From Planctomycetia bacterium (GTDB lineage Bacteria; Planctomycetota; UBA8108; SXIK01), in the NCBI GenBank assembly GCA_005772855.1, contig SXIK01000174.1, forward strand, positions 1 through 48,065: DNA of 48,065 bases, written 5' to 3'. The notes below the pieces were generated by a model that saw nothing but the letters and a program-made list of their open reading frames with translations, made no database searches and was not told the DNA's origin. A program made the translations under genes and the position numbers. This document shows, in pieces, positions 4,790-31,665 of the stretch (its first letter is position 1; every line of letters starts with the position of its first letter).

Positions 4790-5335
4790 AGCAACGAACC
4801 TGGTGATAGCCCAAGGTGTGGATAAGCATACGATGTGTGTGGCTTGCGGGCACCTCTCGCGCCCGAGGCAAGGAGCGTGCCATGAAGCAATCTCAGCACG
4901 GCTCAAGGACGGCCATCTCCCGACTCGATAGAACTAGAGACAGTGTCGCAAGTGATGGTCTGATAACGCAGCGGCGTCGCCGCACGGCTGGCGGGACTTT
5001 CCAAGAAATCTCCTGGTTGTCCCCCCCAGAAAAGCCCATGAATGTCTCTGAGCACGCGGTTCTCGAACGCTTCACCCCTACGAATACTTTTCCTGTTGGC
5101 TCCCGCCAGCCTGGGACTGGCGGCCTGGGCTGTTGGCATCCTCGGCGGTTTTCAGGCAAGCGATGGGCTTGTCTACGACGCCTTGCTTTGATTCAGGGCC
5201 CAACGAGTCGAGGATTCCTCACGGGTACTCCTCCTCGAGATCGACGACACAGAGCGCCATCGCTTCGAGGAAGATCTCCCTTCAATCATTGAAAAGCTGA
5301 ACCAGCTAGAGGCGAAGCTCATCATCATTGGCTCG

Positions 5336-7132
5336 TTGCCTGACGCAGCCCCGGAAAGTTTCTGGGCTGCTGCTGAAGCGCTGGGCAAAGTCGTGGTCGG
5401 AGTGAAGCTGGTTCCAAGTCCCGATGATTCGTCGCGCCTCGTGCCATCGACGCCGCCAGAGCTTGACGGCCGAAAGGGCATCCAGAAGGGCATCGTGGCG
5501 GACCCACCAGCTGCCGGAGGGGTTTGCAGGACGCAGGAGGCACACTCAGGGCCCGGGCAGCTGCCGCTTCTCGAAACTGTTGCAGCCACGCAGGTTCTCG
5601 GAGCGGGATGGAGCGCCCCGGCAGGCCCATATCTCATCGATTTCTGCGGTGGTCCTGGCTCCCTCCCCAACGTCTCTGCGCAGAGGCTCCTGGCGGGAGA
5701 TCTGATCCCGGAACTGGTAACGGGCCGGTGCGTGCTGGTGGGTACAAGGGCACCAGCAATCGGCTCCGGCTTCCACACGCCCACCACCGCATCGCGAAGG
5801 ATGGCCCTACTGGAGTACCAGGGACACGCGCTGAACACTTTGCTCGCGGACAGAGTAATTCGGGAGCCTGACTCCTTGACAAGGCTTGCGATCATCCTTT
5901 CTCTGCTCTTCGTTTGCGCGTCGGTATCTCGCAGGGCCACCCTTCAGTTGTCCTTCTGGCTCACGCTTGTGGTAATCGGGTTCCATGCGCTGGTCTCGGC
6001 AACGGCGCTGGTAGGCTTCCGCACCTGGTTGCCGGTCAGCGAGAATGTCGTCGGGTTGGTTGCCCTCATGGTCTTCACTGTGCGAGGTCGTGCCATCGAG
6101 GTCACGGCATCTCTCAAGAACCTCATCTCCGAATCGGCAGGAATCTTGAAGGACAAGTGCTGGCCAGTTCACGGTCAAGATGTTGACACGACCTGGTCTC
6201 TCGTCGCTGGCATGATCGACCAGACGCTGGACCTGAAGCGCCTCATCTTCCTTCAAGTGGATCCAGGAAGCTCCCGATTGAAGACGATCCTGGCGCTCCA
6301 CTGTTCGATAGATGACATGGCTGAACGCCGTCGCGATTCCACGAGGCCTCCGTACAAGGATGCTATCAATGCAAAGGGCCCCATCGTGGTCGAAAACTTT
6401 CTGGGGACACCGCAGAAGGGCGAAAGGCAGTATCTCATCCCCCTTGTGTTCTGTGGAGAGTTGTTGGGCTTCTGGGCCATGGGGATTGACTCCGCCAAGC
6501 TTGCTGCAATCCCGGAGTTTGAAAGCCTGCTCCACGACTATACGAGTCGCATGGGAGAGCTCCTTCACCAGGCGATGGATGTGTCGCAATCTGGCGGAAT
6601 AGACGCCAGGGCCAAACTCAGGTTCGGCGCTGGCGGTTCCAGCGAGCCTCAGAGCAATTTGAAGTCTACCCTGAACCTGCTTCAGCACCGCCTTGGGGCA
6701 CTTGACGTCCTGATCAATAGCCTCGACGCGGGCGTTATCGTTTTCGATATATTTGGGCGGATCCTCCAGATTAATGACATCATGCTTTCACTCCTCAAGA
6801 AGGAGAGCCTTGTCCCTTTCGACATGTCCGCGCTCGATGTCATCACGACGTTGAGCGACTTCGATCTCAGTCGGGCTCGCAAGTTGTTACGGCGCGTCAT
6901 CGTCGAGAGTTTGCCGGTCTCGTTTCCTGTGAAGCTTCGATCCTCGCCGGGCAGTCGTTACCTTTTTCACCTCAAACCGCTCAGGGAAATTTCGAGAAAA
7001 GACGAAAGAGGACGCTCCAGGCAGGGGGGGGGCAAGGAGCATTCTCTGCGAGCTGGTGGACACCACATCAATGGCAACTCTCCACGAAATGAAGCACCAA
7101 CTGACAGGAAGGCTTTGCACGCAACTCCGTAA
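5336..7132 (+). CDS. CHASE2-GAF-PAS portion of the sensor (fragment)
   Basis: This is the longest intact piece of the broken sensor. TTG 5336 is only the first start-like codon after the TGA at 5189 and lies inside CHASE2, so it is probably not a natural start. CHASE2 is an extracytoplasmic ligand-sensing domain. Its conserved end is seen as VLVGTRAP and then GHALNTLL near residues 137-170. Three hydrophobic helices follow (about 183-250), as is usual for CHASE2 proteins. A GAF-like region covers about 255-420 and a PAS-like region about 455-555. The last 30 or so residues, after the nine-G run, are out of frame and probably not genuine protein. The ligand is unknown; position suggests control of the polymer operon. 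Confidence 0.6.
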   Translation: MPDAAPESFWAAAEALGKVVVGVKLVPSPDDSSRLVPSTPPELDGRKGIQKGIVADPPAAGGVCRTQEAHSGPGQLPLLETVAATQVLGAGWSAPAGPYLIDFCGGPGSLPNVSAQRLLAGDLIPELVTGRCVLVGTRAPAIGSGFHTPTTASRRMALLEYQGHALNTLLADRVIREPDSLTRLAIILSLLFVCASVSRRATLQLSFWLTLVVIGFHALVSATALVGFRTWLPVSENVVGLVALMVFTVRGRAIEVTASLKNLISESAGILKDKCWPVHGQDVDTTWSLVAGMIDQTLDLKRLIFLQVDPGSSRLKTILALHCSIDDMAERRRDSTRPPYKDAINAKGPIVVENFLGTPQKGERQYLIPLVFCGELLGFWAMGIDSAKLAAIPEFESLLHDYTSRMGELLHQAMDVSQSGGIDARAKLRFGAGGSSEPQSNLKSTLNLLQHRLGALDVLINSLDAGVIVFDIFGRILQINDIMLSLLKKESLVPFDMSALDVITTLSDFDLSRARKLLRRVIVESLPVSFPVKLRSSPGSRYLFHLKPLREISRKDERGRSRQGGGKEHSLRAGGHHINGNSPRNEAPTDRKALHATP

Positions 7133-7745
7133 CGACCTCGCCACCATCGATCTGTCGTGGTCATTACTCGGAGCCGGTGCCGTTCCACAGGGCAGTCACA
7201 AAGAAATCGCTGAGCTGATCCAGACGAAGGTGCGGCAAACGGTCAGAATGCTAAGTGATTGTCAGCAGTACCTGTCGGTCGAGACAGACGTCGATGATCT
7301 CGAGCGTCTTCCTGTTGATCCCAAGGGCCTGCTGACTGCAGCCATCGAGGAGTTGAAGGCCGACCGCACACAAAAAAGCCTATCCTTTCGACTGATGGAG
7401 CCCCGCTTCGTTTGTCATGTCTTTGCCTCGGTCACCCGACTCAAGGAGCTCTTCAAGGCGATACTGGCCGTGCTTTGTCAGGACGCGACGGAAGCCAGTA
7501 CGATCCTGATTCGTGTCACCCAGAATGACGGCGTTGTGGCGTTCGATTTCTCGAACTTGGGCTTTGGGATTCCCAACGAAGTTCTTCAGCAGTACGTCCT
7601 TGGCGAGCAAACCGCAGCATCGCCGGAGCTTCAGACCATCCAGGCAGGAGCCAAGTGGGTGCAAGCCTGGGGCGGCATGTTTGAAGCGTACAGCAACGTG
7701 GGTCTGGGCATGCACTTCACGATACACCTGGTGATATTTCTATGA
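7056..7745 (+). CDS. Degenerate histidine-kinase core of the sensor (fragment)
   Basis: This is the C-terminal continuation of the broken CHASE2 sensor in the other frame. The GTG at 7056 is a formal start; the frame is open upstream to the nine-G run and reads sensibly from there (SILCELVD). A helical region resembles HisKA, but the H-box position reads CTQLRNDLATI where SHELRTPL would be expected, so the phosphoacceptor His and following Pro are absent. The ATPase-like domain (about 120-229) keeps the shape of N, G1 and G2 boxes (LKELFKAIL, FSNLGFGIPN, GLGMHF) but lacks the usual N-box Asn and G1 Asp. It may be a pseudokinase or adaptor. It overlaps the receiver gene by ATGA, so the two are translationally coupled. 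Confidence 0.6.
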   Translation: MDTTSMATLHEMKHQLTGRLCTQLRNDLATIDLSWSLLGAGAVPQGSHKEIAELIQTKVRQTVRMLSDCQQYLSVETDVDDLERLPVDPKGLLTAAIEELKADRTQKSLSFRLMEPRFVCHVFASVTRLKELFKAILAVLCQDATEASTILIRVTQNDGVVAFDFSNLGFGIPNEVLQQYVLGEQTAASPELQTIQAGAKWVQAWGGMFEAYSNVGLGMHFTIHLVIFL

Positions 7746-8122
7746 GTACGAAGCTCGAACCGGGGAAGAGAACAGTGCTCATTGTCGATGACGATGCGAT
7801 CTACCGGAAGGTTCTTGCCAAGTGCCTTGAGGCTGCCGGTTATCAGGCACTCGAGGCAGAACATGGCGAGAGCGCGATCGAAATTCTGAGGCAGACATTT
7901 CCCGATGTCATCCTGGTGGACATGCTCATGCCAGTCATGGACGGTATGCAACTCCTCCTTTGGCTCAAGGAAAAAGCTCAGCAACCGATTACGACGATCG
8001 TCCTTACCTGCCTCGATCGAACCGAGGTCGCTGGCGAGGCTTTCCTGGCCGGAGCCGCGGATGTGCTGACCAAGCCTTTTAGCCTGCCTGCACTTCTCAA
8101 GAGACTGTCAACGATCGTGTGA
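7742..8122 (+). CDS. Single-domain response regulator (receiver only)
   Basis: The 126-residue product is a stand-alone CheY-like receiver domain without an output domain. The acidic pocket is Asp16-Asp18, the phosphoacceptor Asp60 (VDMLMP), the switch Thr89 and the invariant Lys111 (KPF). All are present, so it should be phosphorylatable. It overlaps the sensor fragment by ATGA and is followed four bases later by the PgsC-like gene, so it belongs to the same transcript. It may relay the CHASE2 signal to a separate output or act on the synthase by direct contact; no DNA-binding part is present. The degenerate kinase core next door makes its phosphodonor uncertain. Confidence 0.9.
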   Translation: MSTKLEPGKRTVLIVDDDAIYRKVLAKCLEAAGYQALEAEHGESAIEILRQTFPDVILVDMLMPVMDGMQLLLWLKEKAQQPITTIVLTCLDRTEVAGEAFLAGAADVLTKPFSLPALLKRLSTIV

Positions 8123-8126
8123 TGTA

Positions 8127-11100
8127 ATGTCATTTGTCCTACCCATTTTTCCTGAAGGCAGCCTGTCCGGATCTGTCATCACGACTGTATGGATTGGTAT
8201 TTTCGTTCTATGCCTTTTTAATCTGAGGTTTGGGTGGACGCTTTCGGGCCTTGTGATCCCTGGCTACATCGTTCCGTTGCTCATGGTGAAGCCACTGGCT
8301 GCTCTTGTGGTGTGCGGCGAGGGAGTGATTACATATCTGATTGTCTATTGGTTCACGCGGCTCTGTGTTGCCACCGGCCTGGGCTCGAGCTTCTTCGGGC
8401 GGGACAGATTTTTTGCGCTGGTGCTCACCAGTATTGGTGTTCGGGTTCTCCTGGACGGTTACCTTCTCCCATACCTGAGCACCCTCGCAACATCGACCTG
8501 GCTAGTCCAGTTTGATCTGGCCAATAACCTGCATAGCTTTGGACTTATTATAGTTTCGCTCATTGCGAATCAGTTCTGGAAGCCAGGACTCTCCCGTGGA
8601 CTGACTCCCATCATTGTGACTGTGGGCGTCACGTACTTTATCGTCCGTTATCCGCTCATGCACTTCACGAACTTTGCGATCGGTGGCTTCCAGTACATGT
8701 ACGAGGATATAGCTTCTTCCGTTCTGGCCAGCCCCAAGGCCTACATCATTCTGATAAGCACTGCATTCATCGCTTCCAGACTCAATCTCTACTATTCCTG
8801 GGACTTCAACGGGATTCTCATCCCGTCTCTCATCGCGATCCAGTGGTACGAGCCCTTGAAGGTCCTCACCTCTTTCGTGGAAGGCTGGATCATCTTCCTT
8901 GCTTGCAGCCAACTACTCAAGCTCAAGTGGTTCAAGGAAACGACGATCGAGGGCGCACGGAAGATCATCCTCTTCTTTAACGTTTCCTTTGCATACAAGA
9001 TGCTCCTTGGGCACATCTTGGGTCGTATATTCCCCGGGCTTCAGGTGAGCGACTGCTTCGGCTTCGGATACCTGCTGCCAAGTCTGCTCGCGATGAAGAT
9101 GCACGACAAGGCCATCCCAGTCCGTATCACACGCACCACCCTGCAGGCATCCATTGTGGGAGCTGCCTTTGCTGGTGTCGTTGGGTTCATGCTCACGTTT
9201 CTTCCCCAGGGCTGGATCTCCAATCTTGCGACTACTGATGTCGTCCACGGTGAGGAACCTGTCGACAGCCGGCAGACGCTGGTCGAGAAGCTGCGAGAAG
9301 ATAAGGTGCTGCTCTACGAGCGTCAAAGAAGCCTCGCGGTATTGAAGCCAACACCGAGCCAGCTGGATGCTTTTGGGCTCGGGCTGCACGATATTCGGAA
9401 GTATCTCGGTGACAGAGACGCCGGAGTGCTCGAGGAGGCGCGAAAGGCTTTTCGCGCAGCCAAGTATCGCCTTGCCCGCGTGGAGAAGAGATACCTCTAC
9501 TTGAGCGAGTTGCCGCCCAGGAATGGGTGGGGTATTTTCGTAATCGACCTGGATGCTCCGCAAGGTCTGCTGGTTGAGGTGCCCGCGCCGCTTGACGAAT
9601 GGGCGACCCTCGAGTCGGGGGCCTTCTTGTTCCGGCTCCTGGGAGCACGGGCACTCGCTGTTGCAAGAGAGGGCGCCCGCTTTGAGGAGGCTGAAGGACC
9701 TGTTGCACTGGTCACGCGGCAGACTTTTTTCGATGTCTTTCATCGAATATTTTCTGGTCAAGACGTGCTGCAGGTTCGGGGATACGATGCTGCTCTGGCC
9801 CGGAAGCTTTTTGGCAGGGAGCCTGAGCGCGGTAGTCTCGAGGCTCCGGACGTCCCGGCCAGCTTGTGGGTCAAGTCAAGTCTACCCGCAAGCCTTGGAC
9901 TGAGTCGCGTCAGAAGCTTCTTGAAGGACCTCGTGGTGGAGTGGCGCAGTCCGCCTGTGAAGAACATTCAGCGAGACGCCTCGAGTTCTGGCTTCGCAGA
10001 GCTTTTTCTCAGACGTGACGAGCGGAAGCGGTTCCTGGCTCGCTGGTTCCTGGGACACTTTGAACCTGGTCTCCACGAGAAGCCTCAGATCTCGAAGGTC
10101 ATCGCCCCGGATCGCTCATTGGGCGAATGGCTTCTCGAGAGCAAGGGAGGGATTGCTCCACGCGGCTCAAATCTCTATGTCGTGCCCTCCGGCGAAAGTC
10201 TGCTCTTTTTGGATGAGGAGGTCTTGAAGCCACTGGTGAGCCTGCTGAGGGAATCCTCGAAAGGAGAAATGGATTCCAGCGAGCTTGCGACAGAAGTCGA
10301 CGCGTTACGCGGGCCTTCGCGAGCATTCAACTACGACATCTTCCTCCATCGAGATCCCAGGAGCGACGTCTCGTTTGTGGTTCTTGTTGAAGGAGAGGGA
10401 AACGGCGTACAGCAGCACTGGGGCACGTACGTCTTTCGAGTCGGGAGCTCGCAGCCCTTCGCCATCGAGATTCCGCACCCTGAATATGAGCAGAACACGA
10501 TCGAGTATGGAGTGTCTCTCTTCGAAAAGCTCCACGCCTCAGTTCTTCTCATTGCGGGTAGCCACCCGAAGTGCAACACCGATGGAAGCGCGGATGTGGT
10601 GCTGTTTGAAAACAAGGGCTCGCTTTTCAACCTTGTCCATCAAGTGATTCTCAGAGAAGGTAAGGATGACCCCTGGTGCGCCGTGCAGATTCGTGCTCTT
10701 GGTTACCGCCCCGGCGCCGGCCTTCCCGAGGCAGACGTGTTGCTTTCCTTCAGCAATGCCAGCTCGGAGGAATCCACGCTCACCGATCTGGGTAACGATC
10801 TTGCGAGGGAGATGCGTAAGGACGGCGTCTCGGTGCGTTTCGTGGACGGCAGCCGAACGACATCCGGTTACGAGGTGTTTGGTTCGGCGCAAGCCCTTTT
10901 TCTTCCGCACACACGCAACAAGGAGTGCTGTGTAGTGTGGCTTTCCCCGTTTATTCGTTGGGGCTACCGGCAGTACTCGGAAAGCTCTCTCCAGGAATCA
11001 CAGTTTGTGGCTCTGGGGATCAAGAGCTGGGAAAGTGATCTGTTCTTGGAGCTTTCAGCAAATGTGGCAACCCAGGCTGCGATACCCGAAGGTCTTCAGA

Positions 11101-11396
11101 GCGCGCTGAGGAGGTATGGAGAGACACAGGACATCAATATTCTTCACTCGATCCTGCGTGCCTGGCCCGATCTGGAGCTCAACAGGGTGACGGAAAAGAG
11201 TGTGAAGCGAGCGTTTCTCCTGCTTCGTACCCCACAAGGAACTCTGCCGCTCATCATGAATCTTTCTCCGCAGTTGAAGGGTCGCCAGGAGGCGGAAGTC
11301 AGGGATTTCAGACTGTCAGCCCCACCAGGGATCGAAGAACTGAAGCGCTTCGTTGAATCCGGTGCTTCCTTTCTCACGTGGAGGCATGAAACATGA
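8127..11396 (+). CDS. Tandem PgsC/CapC-like membrane protein with large C-terminal extension
   Basis: PgsC/CapC is the polytopic partner of the poly-gamma-glutamate ligase PgsB and normally has about 150 residues. Here two copies are fused. Residues 12-180 match PgsC closely (GLVIPGYI, TYLIVYW, FGLIIVSLIANQ). Residues 205-360 repeat the pattern (FNGILIPSLIA, a helix pair, FGFGYLLPSLLA). About ten hydrophobic helices are visible to residue 360. The remaining 730 residues are soluble and hold two degenerate copies, at about 467-520 and 764-980, of the hydrolase-like domain found alone in the gene at 13873. The motif ExPHxxDD reads VEVPAP and IEIPHP in these two. The gene follows the receiver by four bases and overlaps the next by ATGA. 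Assembly or channel role for polymer transfer is inferred from the family. Confidence 0.8.
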   Translation: MSFVLPIFPEGSLSGSVITTVWIGIFVLCLFNLRFGWTLSGLVIPGYIVPLLMVKPLAALVVCGEGVITYLIVYWFTRLCVATGLGSSFFGRDRFFALVLTSIGVRVLLDGYLLPYLSTLATSTWLVQFDLANNLHSFGLIIVSLIANQFWKPGLSRGLTPIIVTVGVTYFIVRYPLMHFTNFAIGGFQYMYEDIASSVLASPKAYIILISTAFIASRLNLYYSWDFNGILIPSLIAIQWYEPLKVLTSFVEGWIIFLACSQLLKLKWFKETTIEGARKIILFFNVSFAYKMLLGHILGRIFPGLQVSDCFGFGYLLPSLLAMKMHDKAIPVRITRTTLQASIVGAAFAGVVGFMLTFLPQGWISNLATTDVVHGEEPVDSRQTLVEKLREDKVLLYERQRSLAVLKPTPSQLDAFGLGLHDIRKYLGDRDAGVLEEARKAFRAAKYRLARVEKRYLYLSELPPRNGWGIFVIDLDAPQGLLVEVPAPLDEWATLESGAFLFRLLGARALAVAREGARFEEAEGPVALVTRQTFFDVFHRIFSGQDVLQVRGYDAALARKLFGREPERGSLEAPDVPASLWVKSSLPASLGLSRVRSFLKDLVVEWRSPPVKNIQRDASSSGFAELFLRRDERKRFLARWFLGHFEPGLHEKPQISKVIAPDRSLGEWLLESKGGIAPRGSNLYVVPSGESLLFLDEEVLKPLVSLLRESSKGEMDSSELATEVDALRGPSRAFNYDIFLHRDPRSDVSFVVLVEGEGNGVQQHWGTYVFRVGSSQPFAIEIPHPEYEQNTIEYGVSLFEKLHASVLLIAGSHPKCNTDGSADVVLFENKGSLFNLVHQVILREGKDDPWCAVQIRALGYRPGAGLPEADVLLSFSNASSEESTLTDLGNDLAREMRKDGVSVRFVDGSRTTSGYEVFGSAQALFLPHTRNKECCVVWLSPFIRWGYRQYSESSLQESQFVALGIKSWESDLFLELSANVATQAAIPEGLQSALRRYGETQDINILHSILRAWPDLELNRVTEKSVKRAFLLLRTPQGTLPLIMNLSPQLKGRQEAEVRDFRLSAPPGIEELKRFVESGASFLTWRHET

Positions 11397-13876: not shown

Positions 13877-14757
13877 ACCCACTGTTTCGAATCGCGCAGA
13901 TAGTTGTCCTGTTTCTGTCCACTTCGGCGTCAGCGGAGACTTTGAGCGAGCTCCTGGCGAAGGGTTCCGGTGGCAAGTATGTCGAGCCTCGAAAGGAAGA
14001 GATAGCGATCGCCGAAAAAGTGTTTCATGAGGTGTTTTCGCCCACCAGGAGCCTGCCCAGGATATCGGCCCTCGGAGCCGAAATCGGTTTCGAGGTGCTG
14101 TCGGTCCACGGTGCCTCGGAGGAGTTTCTCTTCCTGCGCGAGGTGGACTCTGACAGGAGAGGCCGCGGAATGTACGTTTTCAGGACCCGTCCCACCTCGC
14201 AGCTGGTCGTGGAGGCTCCACACGCGAGCGATGATCTCCACACAGGCCTCCTCGCCGAGCTGCTTTTCCGGGAGACTGGAGCGGTGGCGGCCGCGTGGAA
14301 CACAGTAGGCCGCGATGAGCTCGTGGAGGGTACGAGAGAACAGGCCGACCTGGCGCATCTTCCGGAAAGTGTTTTCGTGGCGTTCACTCGAGCCTTTGCA
14401 GCCGCGTATCCCGGGGGCATTCTTCTCCAGCTTCACGGCTTCGCAAGAAGCCAGAGAAAGTCCGAAGCGGGTGCTCGCTCCGACGCGATCTTGAGCAACG
14501 GGACAAGGTCGCCTCCTCGGTGGCTCTCAAGCACCGCTGAGCGATTCCAGGCAAAGTATGGTGGCAAGTTCTTGGTCTACCCGAGAGATGTGAAGGAGCT
14601 TGGTGCCACCACTAACTCCCAGATGAAGGCTCTCAGAGAGGTGGGGCACACAGGCTTCTTGCATCTTGAGATGTGCCTCGAACTGCGGCAACGGCTGAAA
14701 GCGAATGAGGAGACTCGCAGAGTCTTCTGGAGCTGCCTCCCAGACAAACGGCCATGA
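13873..14757 (+). CDS. Secreted M14/PghP-like hydrolase, putative polymer-trimming enzyme
   Basis: The 294-residue product has a signal peptide (about 1-21, ending SASA). The core pattern is G-YVFR at about 99-104, then VEAPHASDD with His117 and Asp120/121, then LLQLHGF with His188, then HLEM with Glu266. Spacing and order recall zinc carboxypeptidases of the M14 clan (HxxE, a later His in a hydrophobic strand, a late catalytic Glu) and the phage poly-gamma-glutamate hydrolase PghP, but the second ligand would be Asp. This is family reasoning, not a database hit. Two worn copies of the same domain occur in the upstream PgsC-like protein. An ATGA overlap on each side puts it inside the operon. 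A role like CapD or PgdS, releasing or shortening the polymer, is inferred. Confidence 0.6.
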   Translation: MNPLFRIAQIVVLFLSTSASAETLSELLAKGSGGKYVEPRKEEIAIAEKVFHEVFSPTRSLPRISALGAEIGFEVLSVHGASEEFLFLREVDSDRRGRGMYVFRTRPTSQLVVEAPHASDDLHTGLLAELLFRETGAVAAAWNTVGRDELVEGTREQADLAHLPESVFVAFTRAFAAAYPGGILLQLHGFARSQRKSEAGARSDAILSNGTRSPPRWLSSTAERFQAKYGGKFLVYPRDVKELGATTNSQMKALREVGHTGFLHLEMCLELRQRLKANEETRRVFWSCLPDKRP

Positions 14758-17700
14758 AGCGATGGGTTGGCACGACTACATTCGCCACGTGGATCTTGGC
14801 GGCGTTGCCGGCAACCGCCGGACCGGGGAGCGGCAGATCCGCGTTCCTCGAGTCCGCCAGTGCGCAACTGCGGTGGGAGAATGTCGAGCAGGCGCCTCCA
14901 TGGGTGGCCGGTGCGCCGCCTCGATACGCGGAGCCCGAAAATCTTCACACCGTGCGCCTGGAGCCCGGGAAGAGTGTCACGATCGTGCTGGGATTGGCCA
15001 GAATACTACGCGTGCACCGGCCTGGAGCACGAATGGACGGGGCTGATCTCGCGGCATGGATCTCGGACGGGTCGGGGCTCGAGTTTGCGATGACTCCACT
15101 TGCCTCGAGCGACGCGTCCTCGCTCCTGTTCAAGCCGAACCAGCCGAAGACGTTGCTTGTGCGCCTCGTGCGGCCAGCGTCCCGGGAAGGCGCCATGGAG
15201 GTGGCCCTCTTTGTGTCGCGCGTGGAGATTCTTGCACGGACTTCAGGATTTCGCGAGCTCCTGGAGCTGCCCGCCATGCTTTCGAGCTTGCAAATTCCTG
15301 CAGGGTTCGAGCCTGAGACCTGGTGGAGAAGTCCCGGACACCCGGTGACCCTGCTTGTGAAGGGACCGGCCGAGCTCGCCCTGGAGACCCGGCTAGGCTA
15401 TCCAACTGGCGAGGCGGAGCAGCTTCAGCAGTACCGGGTACGACTTGGGATCGATGGAAAGCTCGAATCGCATGAGTTTGCCACGGGACCTGATACGCAA
15501 GGTGAGTTTTTCCTCGATGGCAACCGTGTGGCGCTGGGCCTCGAGCGAACGCTTATCCTTGGCGTTCCAGAGGGCTCTCACGAGGTGCGGATCGACGGTC
15601 CGGAGTCGCTTCTGATGAGGCTCCTCCGGCGGTCCCCCAGAGATTTTCTCCTGGAATCACCCCCGGAGCTTCCGGCCGCCGCGGCGGTCCCCGAGACGCA
15701 GGCTTTCGAGCATCTGCGCAGCGATTTTGCGGAGACAAGGCTTCTCGGGGCCATGCGCTTTCACCAGGCCGCCAGTGGACTCGCGCTCCATCCCGACGAG
15801 CGTGCGATTGCGCATAACCTTTTTCGTCGCCATACCCAGTGGAGACACCTGCTCCCGGCCGAGATGCGTACATCCGGGCCCCTGATCGCCTCATGGTTCA
15901 CAACACCTCGCCTTCTTGAGCCTGGCGAGACAAGCCGGGTCCCTTCGATCGCGCCGCAGCACCTCGCTGACGCCCGCAAAGGGTTTTCCCTCGGGCTCTT
16001 CGTCGCCGCGCCCGTATGGGGGCAGGAAGGGCACGTGTACCGGTTGCCCGTGCGGCGCTCTCCATCGCTCCTCAGAATCGTCGCCTTGAAGGACAGTGAG
16101 GGGCCGGTCCCGCCGGCCGCCGAGTGGATCGTGCAGTTTGACGCCGGAGCCCCCTTCACTCTGCGCGCCACCCGCGGACCAGATCTTCCCCCTGAGGCGT
16201 TTCAGGCAAGCCTTGCTGCTGCGGCCCAGATGGTCTCGCCGCGGTCGCTCGAAATTCCGTCGCCCATCGTTTCAGTTGCTACTGCCGAGCTATCACTCCT
16301 GCCCGGGGCGCACGAGGTCCGCGTGTGGAGTCTTTCTCGGGATGCAGTCATTCCCCTGGCGATCCAGCATCTCTCTGCCGTTGCGCCTGGATCCACCGAG
16401 CTTGAGTACTTGGAGGCTGCCAGGCGATCGCGCACGACAAGCTCACCCGGAAGCAATCTGCTCGCTGAATGGAGGCGGTGGCACCGAGGTGACCCAGCCC
16501 TCGGGCCAGAGTGGGCGGAGTTGGCTCGCGAAGCGATCCCATTGTTCCGCATCTTGAGCCAGAGCGCTCATCGGTTCGAGGCAGGATCTGCCCCTCCCGA
16601 GCCGATGACTGAGCCCACGCGCAACCTGTCTTGGGCAGGGTCGGCGGGCGAGGGTGTTGCTCAAGCCCAGCGTTTCGTGGACAGGGGCGCATGGCTTTCA
16701 GCGCTCGAGGCCTGGAGTGCCGAGATTGCACTTCGAAACCCCGAGACTTACGGTCTCGCCCGGCTAGAGCGCGCGAGGGCGCTGGAGGCTCTGGGCGAGC
16801 ATTTTCTTGCCGAGAGACAGCTTCGCGGGATATTCCTGTTCGATCGCGAGCCATGGCTTCGACAGGAGGCATGTGACCGCCTCCTTGCGATCTATGCAAG
16901 ACGCATCGACACGGATTCTCACCTGGGGCTGCTCTCCATGGCTGCACTCGAACGTGCCGAGCCGCGGACGGCTATTGAAATCGCGGAACTGCTCGCTGGC
17001 CAGGGGGAGCACGAGTTGGCGCTGCTGCTGGCGAACAGCCTCCCGGAAGAGGACCGTCCCCATGAGCTGATGGCCCGATGCGCGGCCAATAAATCGTGGT
17101 GGAGAGTCTTTGATGCGTCAGTAACCCGGATCACTGAACTTCCCAATCGAGAAAAGTGGGCTGGGATTGGAGCCGCGGCACGTGGCCATCCTGCGGAGGC
17201 CTTGTGCCACCTCGACGCTGCCGGTCAGGTGGGGGTTGAGCTCGCGCGAAGCCTGCGCGCCTCACTTGCGATCCGAAATGCTCTGGAATCCGTTGGTCTC
17301 GAGGCCCAGGGCACCCCGGGGAGCTTCCAATCCAAGGAGGCCGTGCGCGCCTGGGCTGCGTGGCGTGTCTCGTGCCCGGGACCGCATGAGTGGCGCGATG
17401 ACCCCACGCTGGTCACCGACTCTGCTGGTGGAGCCCTCGTTTACAACCCTGCCCGTGATCTCCTCCAGCAATACCACCGGGCGATTCCTTCGAGGCCCCT
17501 CAAGGCGCGGTTCGTGGGACCCGGCGTTCTGCGCATCGAGGCGAGACCGCTCCATCCGGCCGATTCCAGCTCGCCCGTCGATGATTGGATTCTTGCGCGT
17601 GAGGTCCGGTCACTCTACCCCATCGCGGTCTGCGGAAACCTACCGGCACGCGGTCTCAAGTTGATCGGAGATGAGGGACGTGTCCCGGGAGCGAAGGTCG

Positions 17701-19883
17701 TGGAAGAAGTGTCGTTTGGATCGGGGCTCCACGAGATCGAGATCGGATCATCAGGCATGGAGTTCCTGGTGCGTCTTGGAGTCCAGGAGCCTGAGTTGTC
17801 GTTTCAGGTTCTGCCGCTCAAGCTGGCAGCTGCAACCTTCTTGACTCCGGATTTGGTGGACCCGGTGTGCTCGGCCCTGGCTGAGGGTCGTCTGGGTGAC
17901 GTCCTGCGAAGCCTGGACTCAAGCGGTCAAGACGATGCACGTGGGCTGCGCCGTCGCATGACCTTGCTCGTCTATGTCGCGGAAGCCGAGCCTTGCCTGC
18001 GTGAGGAGGCGCGTGTCCTTGGGGACGAGCTCCGCGCGGCGCACCTGGATGCGCCAGAATTGCAGCCTCTTTATCTTCGCCTCATGGGCTCGACGCAATG
18101 GAAGCGCCTGACTTCGGTTCACAGCTCGGCCGGCATTAGAAAAGTGGATCTGGGCAGCTGGCAGCCCGAGAGCACTGATTTACGCATCCGGAAATGCCTG
18201 TTGGCGCCTCTCGAGACGGGTCAAAGGCTGGTGACCGCAAGCGCCGGGCTGCTGATCTCACTCACGAATGAAAAGCCAACGACTCTCCAACTTGACCTTG
18301 CCCTGGAGTCGCTCGAGTACCTGCCTCGCTTCCCCTTGACGTTGGTCTATCAGGTCGATGCCCAGGAAGAGACCAAGGTCGAGCTCTCCCCCCAAGCCCC
18401 GCTGCCCTATCTTGAGTGGGATGGCCCACGCGTTCCGATCCGCCTGATCCTGCCCGAGGGTGAGCACAGGGTCCGATTGTGGATCGAGAAGCCCATCGTC
18501 AACCATTTCGTTCGCGTTCGGGCGACAGAGATCAAGCAAGGTATATCAGGTGACGATGGCCCTGGCGAGGACCTGCCCTCCAAATCGAGCCGTACCTATT
18601 TGGTCGCCACTCACGACGAGCCGTTGCGGCTTGTCGTCGAGGGTCCCGCCTCGCTTCAAGTCGACGAGCTGCGCGACGGCATGACCCACACAAGCCACAA
18701 GTGGCTTCGTACGGGCTGGCAGGAGGTTCTCCTGGCGCCGCAGGAGGGCCGAGCCGACGCGCTATTGCGCGTCTTTCAACGCGTGGAATCGGAGGGACTT
18801 GGAGCTGTCCCTGTCCCCGCTCTTGCCGAGGAGGCAGAGCCGCCGCCGCCGCCGCTACCACCCGGGGCGGGTCCAGTCGAGCCCGGCAAGCTCGTCCTCG
18901 AGGACACCTTTGCACTTGGCGGGCAGGAGGACGGAACCCTCTCGCTTGGACTCAGCTCCATCCGTCGCAAGGCGTTCAACGAGGACGGGGGCCTTGGTGA
19001 TGACACCGAGTCCTACCTTCAGCTCGACCTGGGCCATCACTATCAGAGCGAGCACCTCAGCTCGTACTTTGACACGACAGTATTGACCCGGACGCACTTG
19101 AAGGAGGGGCCGCTCATTGGAGCGGAAGAGGACGTCCACGCCCGGCCCGAGTGGCTGCCCTGCGTTCTGCGAGCCACGGGTTCAGTTTATGCACAGTGGC
19201 CGGAGGGCTCCAGTCTGACGCCGATGGGTCCCCCCGAGTGGTCCATGAGCCTGCGAGGTGCTCTGAGCCGCCGCTGGCCCATCGGTCTCAAAGCTTACCA
19301 CGTGCCGTCCCTGTCGATCTTCGGGCGCATCATGAGCCTCAAGAAGTATGGAACTTTTGGTTCCGGGGACCTTGATCAAGATATCTTCACACCCTACAAG
19401 GCGGATCACAGAGCTGGTCTCGCGCTGTCGGAGACGCTGGGCTACTTGCCGTGGCGTGACACGGAATGGTGGGCAAGAGCGGCCGTCATGAGCAATGAGA
19501 ACTTGAGCCCGGGTAATCCAGATTATCTCACGGCCAGTGTGGGGTGGAAGCAGCTGGTGAACGGTTGGGAGCTTGCTGCCACGTACGTGTACTGGAGGTA
19601 TCTCAATGACTCGGATCGGCAAGGTGTCTTCGAGCGGCATGCCGTCTCTTTTCTTGTCTCACGGGACTTCTGGTGCACGCCTCGAGACCGAATCAGCCTG
19701 TCAACCGAGATTCGTCACGACTTCCCGGACGACGTGAACACGGCCTTCTTTTCGCTCACATGGTACTTCTCGAGCGGGCGTGGTTACCGCGACATTTGGC
19801 CGGGCGATGAGAGTTTCCTTGAGCTCAAGAAGCAGCAGATCCCTGGTGGTTACAACAACTCGGTCTCGGAGGTGTCGCCATGA
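14754..19883 (+). CDS. Giant exported protein with TPR-like middle and C-terminal outer-membrane barrel
   Basis: This 1709-residue protein has a signal peptide (about 1-22, ending PATA). The first 600 residues are beta-rich and unrecognised. About 634-850 is helical with TPR-like pairs (ARALEALGEHFLAERQL and similar). A second beta-rich zone follows, then a proline linker near 1362 (five prolines in a row). The last 330 residues alternate polar and hydrophobic or aromatic residues, with strands ending in Tyr/Trp/Phe (YLQLDLGHHY, FFSLTWYF), as in outer-membrane barrels. The order TPR, then barrel, is that of export porins such as PgaA and BcsC, though I see no direct homology. It overlaps both neighbours by ATGA. 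Likely job: passage of the polymer through the outer membrane. Confidence 0.65.
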   Translation: MKRWVGTTTFATWILAALPATAGPGSGRSAFLESASAQLRWENVEQAPPWVAGAPPRYAEPENLHTVRLEPGKSVTIVLGLARILRVHRPGARMDGADLAAWISDGSGLEFAMTPLASSDASSLLFKPNQPKTLLVRLVRPASREGAMEVALFVSRVEILARTSGFRELLELPAMLSSLQIPAGFEPETWWRSPGHPVTLLVKGPAELALETRLGYPTGEAEQLQQYRVRLGIDGKLESHEFATGPDTQGEFFLDGNRVALGLERTLILGVPEGSHEVRIDGPESLLMRLLRRSPRDFLLESPPELPAAAAVPETQAFEHLRSDFAETRLLGAMRFHQAASGLALHPDERAIAHNLFRRHTQWRHLLPAEMRTSGPLIASWFTTPRLLEPGETSRVPSIAPQHLADARKGFSLGLFVAAPVWGQEGHVYRLPVRRSPSLLRIVALKDSEGPVPPAAEWIVQFDAGAPFTLRATRGPDLPPEAFQASLAAAAQMVSPRSLEIPSPIVSVATAELSLLPGAHEVRVWSLSRDAVIPLAIQHLSAVAPGSTELEYLEAARRSRTTSSPGSNLLAEWRRWHRGDPALGPEWAELAREAIPLFRILSQSAHRFEAGSAPPEPMTEPTRNLSWAGSAGEGVAQAQRFVDRGAWLSALEAWSAEIALRNPETYGLARLERARALEALGEHFLAERQLRGIFLFDREPWLRQEACDRLLAIYARRIDTDSHLGLLSMAALERAEPRTAIEIAELLAGQGEHELALLLANSLPEEDRPHELMARCAANKSWWRVFDASVTRITELPNREKWAGIGAAARGHPAEALCHLDAAGQVGVELARSLRASLAIRNALESVGLEAQGTPGSFQSKEAVRAWAAWRVSCPGPHEWRDDPTLVTDSAGGALVYNPARDLLQQYHRAIPSRPLKARFVGPGVLRIEARPLHPADSSSPVDDWILAREVRSLYPIAVCGNLPARGLKLIGDEGRVPGAKVVEEVSFGSGLHEIEIGSSGMEFLVRLGVQEPELSFQVLPLKLAAATFLTPDLVDPVCSALAEGRLGDVLRSLDSSGQDDARGLRRRMTLLVYVAEAEPCLREEARVLGDELRAAHLDAPELQPLYLRLMGSTQWKRLTSVHSSAGIRKVDLGSWQPESTDLRIRKCLLAPLETGQRLVTASAGLLISLTNEKPTTLQLDLALESLEYLPRFPLTLVYQVDAQEETKVELSPQAPLPYLEWDGPRVPIRLILPEGEHRVRLWIEKPIVNHFVRVRATEIKQGISGDDGPGEDLPSKSSRTYLVATHDEPLRLVVEGPASLQVDELRDGMTHTSHKWLRTGWQEVLLAPQEGRADALLRVFQRVESEGLGAVPVPALAEEAEPPPPPLPPGAGPVEPGKLVLEDTFALGGQEDGTLSLGLSSIRRKAFNEDGGLGDDTESYLQLDLGHHYQSEHLSSYFDTTVLTRTHLKEGPLIGAEEDVHARPEWLPCVLRATGSVYAQWPEGSSLTPMGPPEWSMSLRGALSRRWPIGLKAYHVPSLSIFGRIMSLKKYGTFGSGDLDQDIFTPYKADHRAGLALSETLGYLPWRDTEWWARAAVMSNENLSPGNPDYLTASVGWKQLVNGWELAATYVYWRYLNDSDRQGVFERHAVSFLVSRDFWCTPRDRISLSTEIRHDFPDDVNTAFFSLTWYFSSGRGYRDIWPGDESFLELKKQQIPGGYNNSVSEVSP

Positions 19884-22800
19884 CGCGGGAAGACGTGATC
19901 GAAGTCCTGTCGGTTGGGCTCAATCGCCATGAGCGCAAGCTCAACCAGCGGGTCTTCAAGATAATTCTTCCGGAGTTCTTCGCACGACTCGAGGCGCTCT
20001 TGATCGATTGGCGAGAAGAGACCCCGCCTGCGATTCGGAGACAACTCTTCTTGTTCTTGAAGTATCGAGCTGCTGCCCTGGTTGGCACAATCTTTGAGAT
20101 CAGAAAGAAATACGCCGAGTATACGAAGCGCTATTCCCGTGCCATGACGATGGAGGAGAAGGAGAGACACATTCTTGGTTTCTGTAGTGATCTCGGCGCA
20201 TCGCCAAGACGGTTGAGAGGTGACAGGAAGGCTTTCGCCCGTTGGTTTGGCCACGATGCGATTACCGAGCGTTACGTCCGTAGACACAATGCGCTCGAGC
20301 GAGAATTGAGCTTTGTTCTCGAACGAATCGGAGCGCTAGCGAGCGTGCTGCTTTCAAGCGAGTCCCAGGACAACGATCTCGTGTCGTACTGGCAGAATCT
20401 TGATCTCTCGAAGACACTGAAACCATTATTCGCTTACGATGGAGATAGTCGTGTCACCATTGCGGCGTTTCGATGTCTCTCCCGGGCATTGCGGGCGCTC
20501 CCTGCGAATCTTCAGGAGAGCAGCGTGGACGACAATACCTTGCAGATTATCTACCGTTGTGCCTTGCATACGCGGCTTGATGTCTGGCTTCAATGCGAAG
20601 CGGTTACCCTGCTCGAGAGTCTCTCCACATCGTCTCTCGAGAAGGTGCTCACGCGGCGGTTGAAGAATCCTGCGCCCGATGATGATCTTTTCGTCCGCAG
20701 ATGCGCGGTGGCGCTCCTTGGAAGGAACCTCAAGAGGCTTCCTTCTCTCGCTCCACTGTTGCCGGTCGTGGCGAAGGACCCCAGCGCTTACGTGCGGCAG
20801 GGGTTTGCTGCCATTGTGGAGAAGCTGCCAGCAGAGCTTGCTTCTTCCTGGCTGCGCTACCTTGCGGTGGAGGACCCGGTATCACAAGTCCGTGCCTCCG
20901 CGGTCCTTGCAGGCCTTTGCCTTGTGGAGCGGCCCGAGCTTCAGGTGGACGTACTCGCGATCCTACTACAGATCCTGGCAAAGGAGCAGGACTCCTTTGT
21001 GCTTCGCGTGGGTTGTCATGTTGCGGTCGAGGGGATGAGAAAGCTTACGGCTGCTGGCGACCCATTCGCGGCGAAGTGGCACCACGCGGTACTGGAGTCG
21101 CTTGAGCGACTCCACGTGGAGGCCAAGAGCATTCCGGTGAGACGCTGGGCCGCGTTCGCACGCGAAAGTATCTGGTGCGAATCGAGTCCTGAAGCACGAG
21201 CCCTGAAGAGCTCACTCGAGCAGCTAGTCCCCACCCTGAAGGTCGGCGAGCGGAGGAGAATCTCCTCTCGCATCTTGCTCCCCGACGACGATGAAGTTAC
21301 CGGCCGGGTGCTTGCAGTGTTGTGCCAGAACGACTGGGGCTGTCAGCTGGATTACGGCTTCAGGGGTTGGAGCCTTACTCGGGGCGACGTCTTTGTCTTC
21401 AAGCCGTGGCGGTGGCTTCACGAGGTCCGAAACCCATCGCCTGACAAGCGCCAAGCATTTCCCCACACAATCGGGAGACAGTTTCGGGGGGGAGTGTATG
21501 CCCCATCGGCGATTCTGGCGGAGCTTGCGGAGACACGTGTGCCAGGCGAGCCGCTGTTCATTTCCGAGGAGGGAGGCTGGAGGCCTTACTTGCCCTTGCT
21601 CGATGAGTTTCTTGCTGCCCTTGCGCGAGGCTCCGAGAAGCCGCCAGTCAAGATCTTCACGAGCGAGGGAGTGACCGAGATTGCCTCGTCACCGCTGCTT
21701 CGCGACAGGATCAGGGCATTCTGGAAAATCACGACACGCTACCCTGACATGGCAAAGCTCAGGAATTGGAGAAGCCAGCTTCAGGAGAGCCCTGCGACCT
21801 ATGCACGCGCGATGCAGGACCTGGGATTTGAGATCTGTTTTCGCCCTCACGTTGGTGAAGACGGCCAATCCACGTCGGTGGACCCATCGGTGGCGCGGTT
21901 CTTTCCCATGGGCATGCCCCTGCTGCCGCCGGAGCTCTGGACTCGTGCGAGAGAGTATTTTGTCTCTGTCTATGACAACTCACTTTTCGAGCTGGCCCTG
22001 TTCCTCGGCGTCGCCGGTGGTTTTTTCCTCGGGCGGCATTGCTACTCAACAGCGACGGTGAAGAAGTGGCGCGATCGCATCCCACTGGTTGTTGGAGGCT
22101 GGGGAACTCGAGGCAAGTCGGGTACGGAGCGTCTGAAGGCTGCATTGTTCAACGCTCTCGGCTACGCCGTCGTTTCAAAGACAACCGGGTGCGAGGCGAT
22201 GTTTCTCTGTGCTCACGCCTTCGGTAAGACCCGCGAGATGTTCCTGTTCAGGTCGTACGACAAGGCGACCATCTGGGAGCAGCGCAATGTCATTCGCATC
22301 AGTGACCAACTTGGAGCGGAGGTGTTCCTTTGGGAGTGCATGGCGTTGACACCGTCCTACGTGGAGGTGCTGCAACAGCAATGGGTGCGCGACGATATCT
22401 CGACCATCACGAATACCTACCCCGACCACGAGGACTTGCAAGGCCCGGCGGGCATTAACATCCCCGAAGTCATCGGAGTCTTTTGCCCGACGAGGTCGAA
22501 GTGCATCACGACCGAGGAGGTGATGCTTCCCGTGCTAACCGAGATCGCAAGGGAGAAAAAGACGCCGCTTCGGTGCGTCAGCTGGCTGGCCCCGGGGCTC
22601 ATCGCTCCCGACGTTCTCAAGCGCTTTCCTTACGATGAGCACCCGTGCAACGTTGCGCTCGTGTTGGCCCTGGCCGACGAGCTGGGCATCAGTGAGGACT
22701 TTGCCTTGAAGGAGCTTGCGGATCGAGTTGTTCCTGACCTCGGCGTGCTGAAGACCTCCCCCGTCGCCACCGTACGTCGCAGGCGCCTACAGTTTTCGAA

Positions 22801-24097
22801 CGGATGCTCGGCCAATGAGCGCCATGGCACCATCTCGAACTGGGTGCGGTGCGGCTTTGATGTGCAAGATCCGGTGAAAGAGCCGGGTGTCTGGATCACA
22901 ACGGTTGTCAACAACCGTGCCGATCGCGTGCCTCGTTCGCTGGTGTTTGCTCGCATTTTGGTCGAGGACATCTACGCTGACCGCCACTTCCTCATAGGCG
23001 GTAATCTCTCCGGGCTCGTTGGATATATCAGGCAATCCTGGGAGGCCTACGCGGCCACCATCAGTCTCTGGCCGAAAGACGCTTCCGAGGAGCCCGTGGC
23101 AGTGCTACGCGAGATGGCGCGCCGCTTTCGAGTACCATTCGAGAGGGGCCAGGTGATCGCACGGCTTCGAGCCATGGTCTCCGGGCAGGAAGCAACCTTG
23201 GACGTTGAATTCGGCACGGACGGGCTCGCGAGCGATCTCAACCTGCTGCGAGGCAAGCTGAATACCCTGGGACTTGCCGACGTGACCGAGAATATACTGA
23301 AATGCCACAAACAGAACCTCGAGAACTTCGAGGCTTTTGAGTCGTTCCGCTTGCGTGTCGAGAGTAGTGCTTCAAGTGACCGCTCGACGCTCGACCAGGA
23401 GTTCAGGGCTCTGCTCTTCAAGTGGTTTGAAAAGAAAATTGTGGTCGTGCACGACTATTACATGAGTGGAGACCAGATCATCAACCTTATCGCCGAGGAG
23501 ACTCCGCCGGGTTATCTGAACCGCATCATGGGTGTTCAAAATATCAAGGGCACCGGGCTTGACTTCGTGTACCGCTGGCAGGCCTGGGACACCTGTTGGC
23601 GCTCCTGTGAGCAACTTCAGAGCAAGGACCTGGTGACGGCGGAGAGAGGATTGCGGGCGTTGTCCTCGTTCCACGAGTATGGCATTCTTTGCGAGGAGCA
23701 CGTCAGAGAGGTGCTTGCCAGGGTGAAACAGTCAGCCGTGGCCCAGAATGAGTCATTCCAGGCGGAATTGTCACTCATATTCTCCAACTTCGACCAGGCG
23801 ATTCGAGAGCTAGGCGAGAAGCTGAAGGCCGTGCGGAGACAGGCGGGAGGCTTCGAGCGCATGGTGTCCGCCGTCGAGAATTTCTTTGATGCGGGAGATG
23901 CTGTGAAGCGCCGCAAGAAGGCGAACCAGATCTATCGAGATTTGGTCGATCAGCGCATCAGCTACGAACGTGCTGCCCTGGAGCTTCAGGGTCTCAACAA
24001 GCGCCAGAAAGGCGGCTGGCTCTTGCACAAGATCGCCGATGCCCAGGGCGCCATTGCCCGGCGCGTGGCCGGGCTGCTCGTTCGAGGCGTCAAGTAA
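19880..24097 (+). CDS. HEAT-repeat/PgsB(CapB)-like poly-gamma-glutamate ligase fusion
   Basis: PgsB/CapB is an ATP-dependent amide ligase, related to Mur ligases, that adds glutamate to a growing chain. The 1405-residue product keeps this core at about 735-1080. The P-loop GTRGKSGT is at 742-749, ECMA near 820, NPDY/NTYPDH-type Mg/ATP region after it, then NVALVLALADELGIS, FSNGCSAN and NNRADRV near 1013, all matching PgsB in order. A hydrophobic segment (about 702-720) just before the core matches the N-terminal anchor of PgsB. Ahead of it lie 700 residues with HEAT-like helical repeats (about 188-390), and after it a 320-residue helical tail. Both are absent from the ordinary protein of about 400 residues. 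It is the last gene of the operon. Glutamate as substrate is presumed. Confidence 0.85.
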   Translation: MTREDVIEVLSVGLNRHERKLNQRVFKIILPEFFARLEALLIDWREETPPAIRRQLFLFLKYRAAALVGTIFEIRKKYAEYTKRYSRAMTMEEKERHILGFCSDLGASPRRLRGDRKAFARWFGHDAITERYVRRHNALERELSFVLERIGALASVLLSSESQDNDLVSYWQNLDLSKTLKPLFAYDGDSRVTIAAFRCLSRALRALPANLQESSVDDNTLQIIYRCALHTRLDVWLQCEAVTLLESLSTSSLEKVLTRRLKNPAPDDDLFVRRCAVALLGRNLKRLPSLAPLLPVVAKDPSAYVRQGFAAIVEKLPAELASSWLRYLAVEDPVSQVRASAVLAGLCLVERPELQVDVLAILLQILAKEQDSFVLRVGCHVAVEGMRKLTAAGDPFAAKWHHAVLESLERLHVEAKSIPVRRWAAFARESIWCESSPEARALKSSLEQLVPTLKVGERRRISSRILLPDDDEVTGRVLAVLCQNDWGCQLDYGFRGWSLTRGDVFVFKPWRWLHEVRNPSPDKRQAFPHTIGRQFRGGVYAPSAILAELAETRVPGEPLFISEEGGWRPYLPLLDEFLAALARGSEKPPVKIFTSEGVTEIASSPLLRDRIRAFWKITTRYPDMAKLRNWRSQLQESPATYARAMQDLGFEICFRPHVGEDGQSTSVDPSVARFFPMGMPLLPPELWTRAREYFVSVYDNSLFELALFLGVAGGFFLGRHCYSTATVKKWRDRIPLVVGGWGTRGKSGTERLKAALFNALGYAVVSKTTGCEAMFLCAHAFGKTREMFLFRSYDKATIWEQRNVIRISDQLGAEVFLWECMALTPSYVEVLQQQWVRDDISTITNTYPDHEDLQGPAGINIPEVIGVFCPTRSKCITTEEVMLPVLTEIAREKKTPLRCVSWLAPGLIAPDVLKRFPYDEHPCNVALVLALADELGISEDFALKELADRVVPDLGVLKTSPVATVRRRRLQFSNGCSANERHGTISNWVRCGFDVQDPVKEPGVWITTVVNNRADRVPRSLVFARILVEDIYADRHFLIGGNLSGLVGYIRQSWEAYAATISLWPKDASEEPVAVLREMARRFRVPFERGQVIARLRAMVSGQEATLDVEFGTDGLASDLNLLRGKLNTLGLADVTENILKCHKQNLENFEAFESFRLRVESSASSDRSTLDQEFRALLFKWFEKKIVVVHDYYMSGDQIINLIAEETPPGYLNRIMGVQNIKGTGLDFVYRWQAWDTCWRSCEQLQSKDLVTAERGLRALSSFHEYGILCEEHVREVLARVKQSAVAQNESFQAELSLIFSNFDQAIRELGEKLKAVRRQAGGFERMVSAVENFFDAGDAVKRRKKANQIYRDLVDQRISYERAALELQGLNKRQKGGWLLHKIADAQGAIARRVAGLLVRGVK

Positions 24098-26356: not shown

Positions 26357-26628
26357 GGTGGCACCTTTTCCTCCCATTACGGGAATAGGATGCTGCTGGT
26401 TATCAGGCAACATCGGTCCTCCGTGAAAAACCCCGGGTTGATGGTTGATGGAGGCGCGAATCCGTATAATGAGGCGGCGGGCGGGAATAGGAAACGGACC
26501 CTGGAGCCATGCCCGAGTTCCTGAAAGATCGGGGGAGTCGCGTTGATGGAACGATTCCTGCAGTGGGTGACAGAGAACGCAGGATGGATGGCCTCCCTAC
26601 ACTCAATTGAAGAGAAAAAATACCCCAA

Positions 26629-27699: not shown

Positions 27700-27721
27700 G
27701 AGTTGCCTCTCTGAAAGCACC

Positions 27722-29008: not shown

Positions 29009-29775
29009 GCTTGAATCCCGACATTCCCGTTGTGATCCTTTGCGGAGGCAAGGGCACTCGTCTTGGCGAGCTCGGAAAGGTTCGACCGAAGCCTCTCGTG
29101 CCGATCGGCGGCATGCCCGTTTTGTGGCACATCATGAAAAGCTATGCCCACTGGGGTCACAAGCGTTTTGTTCTTTGCCTCGGATACAAGGGCGAGCTGA
29201 TCGAGGAGTTTTTCACACGAGGGACGGTGAGCGGGCAACGGGCAGCAGCTCAACCTCCCACTGAGCCTGGCTGGAAGATTACCTTCGCTGACACCGGCGC
29301 CGAGACTGGAACTTCGGGTCGCGTGCTTGGAATTCAACCTTTTGTTGCGAACGATGACCGCTTCTTCCTCACTTACGGCGACGGCGTCTCCTCGGTCGAT
29401 CTGGAGCAGCTCCTCGATTATCACCTTTGCATGAAGAAGCTTGTGACCGTTACTGGAGTTCACCCCGAGACGACTTTCGGGGTCATTCGCGAGGAAGGTG
29501 GAGTCGTGACGGCCTTCGCCGAAAAGCCCCGGCTGAACGTGATCATCAATGGTGGCTTCTTTGTCATGGAGCAGAAAGTCTTTGAGTACCTCGACAGTGA
29601 CGGACCTCTCGAGGAGCGGCCCCTTGGGCGCTTGACGGCGGAGAGGCAGCTCGCGGTTTACCACCACGAGGGCTTTTGGCAGTGCATGGACAACCAGAAA
29701 GAAGTGGAGAGGCTCGGCGGCATGTGGGAGCGCAATGAGCGTCCATGGGCCGTTTGGCAGACTCTCAAGGTCTGA
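29005..29775 (+). CDS. rfbF: Glucose-1-phosphate cytidylyltransferase-like nucleotidyltransferase (RfbF family)
   Basis: The 256-residue product would activate a sugar-1-phosphate with a nucleotide, CTP if it is a true RfbF. The nucleotidyltransferase signature GGKGTRLGE is at 14-22, with Lys29 in RPKPLVPIGG after it. Further RfbF-like features are HIMKSYAHWGHKRFVLCLGYKG, a metal-binding DG in YGDGVSSVD, and a C-terminus with FWQCMDNQKE and RPWAVW, close to the family ending. Length is typical. It overlaps the preceding SAF oxidoreductase by ATGA. A CDP-glucose 4,6-dehydratase, the usual next enzyme, is not obvious in the window unless the epimerase at 31666 does that job. The base specificity is a family inference. 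Confidence 0.82.
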   Translation: MSLNPDIPVVILCGGKGTRLGELGKVRPKPLVPIGGMPVLWHIMKSYAHWGHKRFVLCLGYKGELIEEFFTRGTVSGQRAAAQPPTEPGWKITFADTGAETGTSGRVLGIQPFVANDDRFFLTYGDGVSSVDLEQLLDYHLCMKKLVTVTGVHPETTFGVIREEGGVVTAFAEKPRLNVIINGGFFVMEQKVFEYLDSDGPLEERPLGRLTAERQLAVYHHEGFWQCMDNQKEVERLGGMWERNERPWAVWQTLKV

Positions 29776-29796
29776 AGCGGAAAAGAAGGAACCTCG

Positions 29797-31086: not shown

Positions 31087-31170
31087 AAGCTCGCTCAGCT
31101 CGAGTCTGGTATTGCTGTCCTCCTGACCGATTCACACCCCCTACTGACTTCCAGGCGCAAGAAAACCACC

Positions 31171-31620: not shown

Positions 31621-31665
31621 TCTGCAACCCTGTCCGACCTGCACTTGGAGAAAGAGACCTACCCC

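Follow-up and report, generated by a model that had tools for sequence, protein, structure and literature searches.

Organisation of the locus

The window analysed here, a stretch of 48,065 nucleotides (contig SXIK01000174.1 of assembly GCA_005772855.1, forward strand), belongs to the 5.0 Mb metagenome-assembled genome of a Planctomycetia bacterium (phylum Planctomycetota). It contains a conserved plus-strand cassette of seven to eight genes that encodes relatives of the poly-γ-glutamate (PGA) synthase proteins PgsB and PgsC. The co-directional gene order is sensor kinase, receiver, tandem PgsC (also termed CapC; here CapC2), an 827-residue protein (S827), a metallohydrolase-like protein, a 1709-residue barrel protein and a PgsB-type ligase fused to a HEAT-like region (HEAT-PgsB). 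Six complete open reading frames (ORFs) lie in a row from 7742 to 24097 (Table 1), and neighbouring frames overlap by ATGA at four of the five junctions, the remaining junction being a 4-base gap. The original prediction, made from the sequence without database searches, had placed here an operon from 5042 to 24097, with ATGA overlaps between neighbours, for making and exporting a PGA-type polymer in a diderm (two-membrane) bacterium. The six open frames bear out this layout from 7742 onwards; the interval 5042-7132 is not a single open frame, and the overlap is missing at one junction.

Both parts of the presumed synthase were recognised by profile searches. CapC2 matches PF14102 in two stretches, with a total of 127 bits and with 79.5 and 63.2 bits for the two copies (gathering cut-off, 27). 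Residues 725-1051 of the 1405-residue HEAT-PgsB match TIGR04012 with 184.2 bits (E=3.1e-54), and an alignment with a canonical PgsB of about 400 residues (genome G380) revealed the common motifs GTRGKS, KTTG, ECMAL, ITNxxxDHxD, NGxxAN and VNxRxDRxxR. With its P-loop and downstream catalytic motifs intact, the protein is a PgsB-type amide ligase in the broad sense, and the P-loop sequence GGWGTRGKSG is invariant across 11 relatives. The HEAT match in the N-terminal half is weak (22.7 bits in Pfam; cut-off, 27.7). The tandem PgsC-like protein and the HEAT-fused PgsB-like protein of the original prediction were thus both confirmed. Neither phmmer searches using the PgsB and PgsC proteins nor profile searches of the PDB with the families of ligase, hydrolase and barrel yielded a usable match.

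The profile of the neighbouring hydrolase partially matches the C-terminal part of CapC2 at two places, as it does in most full-length family members. The original prediction had missed these degenerate domains; a hydrolase-like domain is present in the cassette both as a free protein and within the PgsC protein. In the window's CapC2, other residues mostly take the place of the histidines and glutamate of the metal site, and these domains therefore look inactive. Because more positive charge precedes the last transmembrane helix of PgsC than follows it, a rule-of-thumb argument places the C-terminal part outside the inner membrane.

No Pfam family was obtained for S827, the hydrolase, the 1709-residue protein or their relatives, and S827 has no NCBIfam match either. 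Homologues of S827 have an N-terminal signal anchor, in agreement with its prediction as a secreted protein. The hydrolase family has five invariant residues (H117, D121, R147, H188 and E266), and homologues start with signal peptides or lipobox-like N-termini. Its confident structure model (predicted local distance difference test score, pLDDT, 88.5) suggests a zinc-peptidase-like fold; its fold matches in the PDB are zinc-peptidase-like, with E-values down to 7e-6 but low TM-scores of 0.3-0.4, the deglutamylase CCP5 and Atu2144 among them. The signals and the model are compatible with a secreted hydrolase-like protein as originally proposed; the search for PF05908, the PghP family, does not (see below). 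An AlphaFold2 (AF2) model, computed from the last 389 residues of the 1709-residue protein and 19 relatives, features a 14-strand barrel. Its highest-ranking hits in the PDB are OmpG and related porins; AlgE and BcsC rank lower. Together with the signal-like N-terminus of the protein, this model agrees with the probable outer-membrane β-barrel noted originally.

A secreted metallohydrolase whose putative metal site is intact, together with a porin-like barrel, might also be expected of an operon that imports and degrades environmental polyglutamate, the ligase salvaging the monomers. We regard this as highly improbable, since the constant core of the cassette is an ATP-dependent polymer ligase with its PgsC partner, and none of the genes in the cassette was recognised as encoding an uptake transporter.

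The sensor kinase gene is disrupted twice: codon 50 (about 5189-5191) is an in-frame TAG, and the frame changes between 6992 and 7022, coding going on in another frame from about 7023. In relatives the kinase is encoded by one ORF of about 890-920 residues. The lesions may be either real decay or a sequencing or assembly error; the receiver and the structural genes beside the broken gene are all intact. A role of the kinase and receiver as control, as originally proposed, is favoured by the conservation of the pair upstream of CapC2 in relatives and weakened by the state of the kinase gene in this contig. Matches to the receiver profile alone were not counted as evidence for a cassette, this being a common domain.

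Immediately beyond the operon, on the opposite strand (24155-26413, minus), lies a gene for a secreted protein with VWA and DUF4114 domains. Further downstream (26629-33986), genes for a glycosyltransferase, a nucleotidyltransferase, a methyltransferase and an epimerase likely form a sugar-nucleotide surface locus.

Table 1. Features of the cassette, in nucleotide positions of the window. Residue numbers refer to the encoded protein.
Feature	Position	Strand	Basis
CHASE2 sensor histidine kinase gene, disrupted	5042-7745	+	Comparison with single ORFs of relatives
Stand-alone response-regulator receiver, 126 residues	7742-8122	+	PF00072, E=2e-26; histidine kinase and response regulator precede CapC2 in relatives
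Tandem PgsC/CapC membrane protein with C-terminal extension (CapC2), 1089 residues	8127-11396	+	PF14102
First CapC copy	8193-8597	+	PF14102, E=9e-22
Second CapC copy	8766-9116	+	PF14102, E=1e-16
First degenerate hydrolase-like domain, matched stretch, residues 437-559	9435-9803	+	Hydrolase-family profile, whole-protein E=3e-9
Second degenerate hydrolase-like domain, matched stretch, residues 746-805	10362-10541	+	Hydrolase-family profile
S827, secreted or signal-anchored protein	11393-13876	+	Conserved in cassette; N-terminal signal anchor in homologues
Secreted metallohydrolase-like protein; putative metal site H117, D121, H188, E266 intact	13873-14757	+	Family alignment, model, signals of homologues
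1709-residue secreted protein, large periplasmic part and C-terminal barrel	14754-19883	+	Signal-like N-terminus; AF2 model
Predicted 14-strand outer-membrane β-barrel	18936-19772	+	AF2 pLDDT 81, predicted TM-score (pTM) 0.76; PDB matches to OmpG-like porins
PgsB-type amide ligase with fused HEAT-like N-terminal region, 1405 residues	19880-24097	+	TIGR04012; weak Pfam HEAT
PgsB catalytic core, P-loop GGWGTRGKSGT	22052-23032	+	TIGR04012, 187.5 bits (genome search); motifs common with canonical PgsB
Six open frames	7742-8122, 8127-11396, 11393-13876, 13873-14757, 14754-19883, 19880-24097	+	ORF reading

Distribution of the cassette

A scan of 84,980 species genomes yielded 349 stretches with relatives of the cassette PgsB, of which the best 80 were analysed. 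Carriers belong to the Gamma-, Alpha- and Betaproteobacteria, Desulfobacterota, Nitrospirota, Planctomycetota, Verrucomicrobiota, Hydrogenedentes and others, and the gene order recurs in Gamma- and Betaproteobacteria and Desulfobacterota. HEAT region and PgsB form one ORF in 76 of the 80 loci, and the order S827, hydrolase, barrel, HEAT/PgsB is kept in many loci from several phyla. All 20 genomes picked for their cassette PgsB encode a tandem CapC protein; in regions from these genomes, kinase, receiver, CapC2 and S827 follow in order upstream, for instance in Methylovulum miyakonense and Vreelandella zhuhanensis. Within the window's own phylum a tandem CapC match was obtained in 17 of 392 sampled genomes, the window's included, a few of them matching weakly or by the hydrolase-like part alone; all 12 other planctomycete genomes with a match covering the tandem CapC part carry this type of large PgsB. 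The survey of gene order that the original prediction had called for thus found the order conserved in several phyla, and the cassette is more widespread than that prediction could show.

Variants exist. The cassette of Erythrobacteraceae reads kinase, receiver, CapC2, short S827, hydrolase, PgsB, and small predicted barrels lie close to it at two loci. Vreelandella massiliensis has two cassettes; in the second (locus L185) the 827-residue gene is followed directly by the barrel gene, and no hydrolase gene was seen between them.

The distribution across phyla is patchy, planctomycete PgsB sequences fail to group together in a 100-sequence tree, and the nearest row to the PgsB of the window, with modest branch support, is a Verrucomicrobiia sequence of 72% identity. 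For these reasons transfer of the cassette between phyla seems likely.

The original prediction noted no PgsA-like gene, and indeed there is no match to PF09587 (PgsA/CapA) anywhere in the window's genome, which is 96% complete; a full PgsBCA complex was therefore not found. The further proposal that the extra genes replace PgsA is not supported in this form: in Ramlibacter and Silicimonas a CapA-domain protein adjoins a cassette that retains both S827 and the hydrolase, and a published study reports that PGA can in some settings do without CapA (PMC5542703). As CapA is absent from the window's genome yet sits beside the cassette in these two relatives, it is neither required nor simply replaced. 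CapA (PF09587) proteins of 749-780 residues with a carboxypeptidase-regulatory-like domain lie beside the cassette at L118:2035-4377 (minus strand) and L125:13128-15377 (plus strand).

Proposed function

We consider it reasonably probable (about 0.62) that the operon is a diderm synthesis and export machine for a PGA-type polymer. In the cytoplasm the PgsB-type ligase would form amide bonds between amino acids, most likely glutamate, in an ATP-driven reaction, and the tandem PgsC would provide the exit through the inner membrane. The degenerate hydrolase domains at the C-terminus of CapC2, probably periplasmic, may hold or guide the emerging chain; the signal-anchored S827 would span the periplasm, and the secreted metallohydrolase would trim or clear the chain. 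Finally, the 1709-residue protein would pass the chain through its outer-membrane barrel, much as BcsC or AlgE do with polysaccharides. The CHASE2 kinase and the receiver would set the activity of the machine, the kinase gene being damaged in this copy of the genome. The monomer, the direction of transport, the role of the barrel and each periplasmic role are inferred. As regards the original prediction, a Pgs ligase and PgsC in a conserved operon with envelope proteins lend partial support to its candidate diderm PGA-type system; the replacement of PgsA is not supported as proposed.

Several observations weigh against this proposal. The ligase and CapC2 both score below the equivalog cut-offs for PgsB (TIGR04012; 184.2 against 222.7 bits) and PgsC (TIGR04011; 51.4 against 96.45 bits). 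None of 21 hydrolase family members matches PF05908 or any other Pfam family, and the 50 fold matches listed for the hydrolase do not include PghP. The large barrel is absent from the Erythrobacteraceae cassettes. The topology of the ligase protein is doubtful: the HEAT region has no export signal, and a conserved hydrophobic segment separates it from the ligase. A single membrane crossing would put HEAT region and ligase on different sides, a conflict that a hairpin or a non-crossing helix would remove. HEAT and PgsB are separate ORFs in some relatives, and no signal peptide was recognised in the sole such relative with a visible HEAT start. Lastly, both the polymer and glutamate as its monomer are predictions.

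Some of these points would also fit a ligase making another amide product, either a different amino-acid polymer or short gamma-linked tails on a lipid, cell-wall or surface molecule, which would be exported or assembled at the barrel. In the tree, a very long, fully supported branch parts the cassette PgsB from the canonical PgsB of about 400 residues, a separation that holds for the six canonical rows included, all planctomycete, and not for every PgsB. The cassette clade thus appears distinct and long separated; its P-loop context is changed (GGW before GTRGKS), GGWGTRGK being present in 93 of the 94 non-canonical rows. The canonical PgsB and the large one of the cassette occur together in five planctomycete genomes (G138, G167, G227, G247 and G298), which argues for two different products, and the sub-equivalog ligase score and the lack of PF05908 in the hydrolase point the same way. 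We nevertheless think a different product unlikely, as nearly all P-loop and substrate-region motifs are common with canonical PgsB and the ligase is partnered by PgsC, as in PGA synthesis.

The polymer could instead serve as a storage or osmotic compound, retained within the cell or the periplasm and mobilised by the hydrolase, the barrel being a porin unrelated to export. CapB/CapC genes of lucinid symbionts have been listed under storage compounds (PMC11168628), Thiodiazotropha carries the cassette, and the Erythrobacteraceae manage without the large barrel. We judge this quite improbable, because the barrel ORF lies directly upstream of HEAT-PgsB in 38 of the 56 loci with at least 3 kb of upstream sequence, in several phyla, and because, in contrast to plain porins, the barrel forms one protein with a large periplasmic region.

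Synthesis and export of a PGA-type polymer thus remains our preferred reading. A wider claim, that the cassette is a widespread, undescribed trans-envelope machine for amino-acid polymers, with a separate PgsB/PgsC lineage, its own outer-membrane exporter, a periplasmic hydrolase and pseudo-hydrolase guiding domains, has in our view about even odds. PGA is well studied in one-membrane bacteria, and synthase homologues are known in diderms; the literature searched offers no route by which such a polymer would pass the outer membrane. If the wider claim is true, this machine would answer how diderms move amino-acid polymers across that barrier. Cultured organisms are among the carriers (Methylovulum, Vreelandella, Erythrobacteraceae and Desulfocicer), so the cassette is a concrete candidate and the question can be tested genetically. 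CapB/CapC annotations in symbionts and sediment bacteria may likewise mark this different, larger system.

Comparison with known systems

Full-text literature searches found no description of the cassette; subscription papers and preprints were thinly covered, so novelty is not proven. A CapC match in a study of lipocone proteins proved a false lead ('CapCone'), and the Cloacimonadota have an ordinary capBCA (PMC13082233). As in PgsBCA/CapBCA of Bacillus, a ligase with PgsB-type motifs and a PgsC-type membrane protein are encoded together. In contrast to that system, the cassette PgsB has a HEAT region and the P-loop GGWGTRGK, its PgsC is tandem and carries degenerate hydrolase domains, PgsA is absent here, and a periplasmic and outer-membrane set is added.

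CapsuleFinder, whose model requires both CapB and CapC, predicted PGA capsules in most phyla, among them the Planctomycetes (PMC5542703). The cassette resembles these diderm capsules in combining CapB with CapC in diderm phyla, Planctomycetes included; the model, in the sections consulted, names only CapA-E-type components, and neither an outer-membrane exporter nor such a cassette.

The cassette hydrolase has H...D, LHG and E motifs in common with PghP/PF05908, M14 peptidases and N-formylglutamate amidohydrolase, and its model suggests that it may also have their zinc-peptidase-like fold. It differs from PghP and M14 in lacking a PF05908 or other Pfam match and in the HxxxD pattern of its metal site, which is usually HxxE in M14.

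The outer-membrane half of the cassette appears to be previously undescribed. Its closest parallels are the exporters BcsC, PgaA and AlgK/AlgE, which also combine a large periplasmic region with an outer-membrane barrel and whose operons include a gene for a periplasmic hydrolase or lyase (BcsZ, AlgL). Unlike these exporters, the cassette barrel has 14 strands in the model (16 in BcsC, 18 in AlgE), has no sequence match and partners an amide ligase rather than a glycosyltransferase. The parts of the cassette, such as the Pgs synthase, are known in kind; the whole appears to be a variant not described before, and includes a candidate outer-membrane route.

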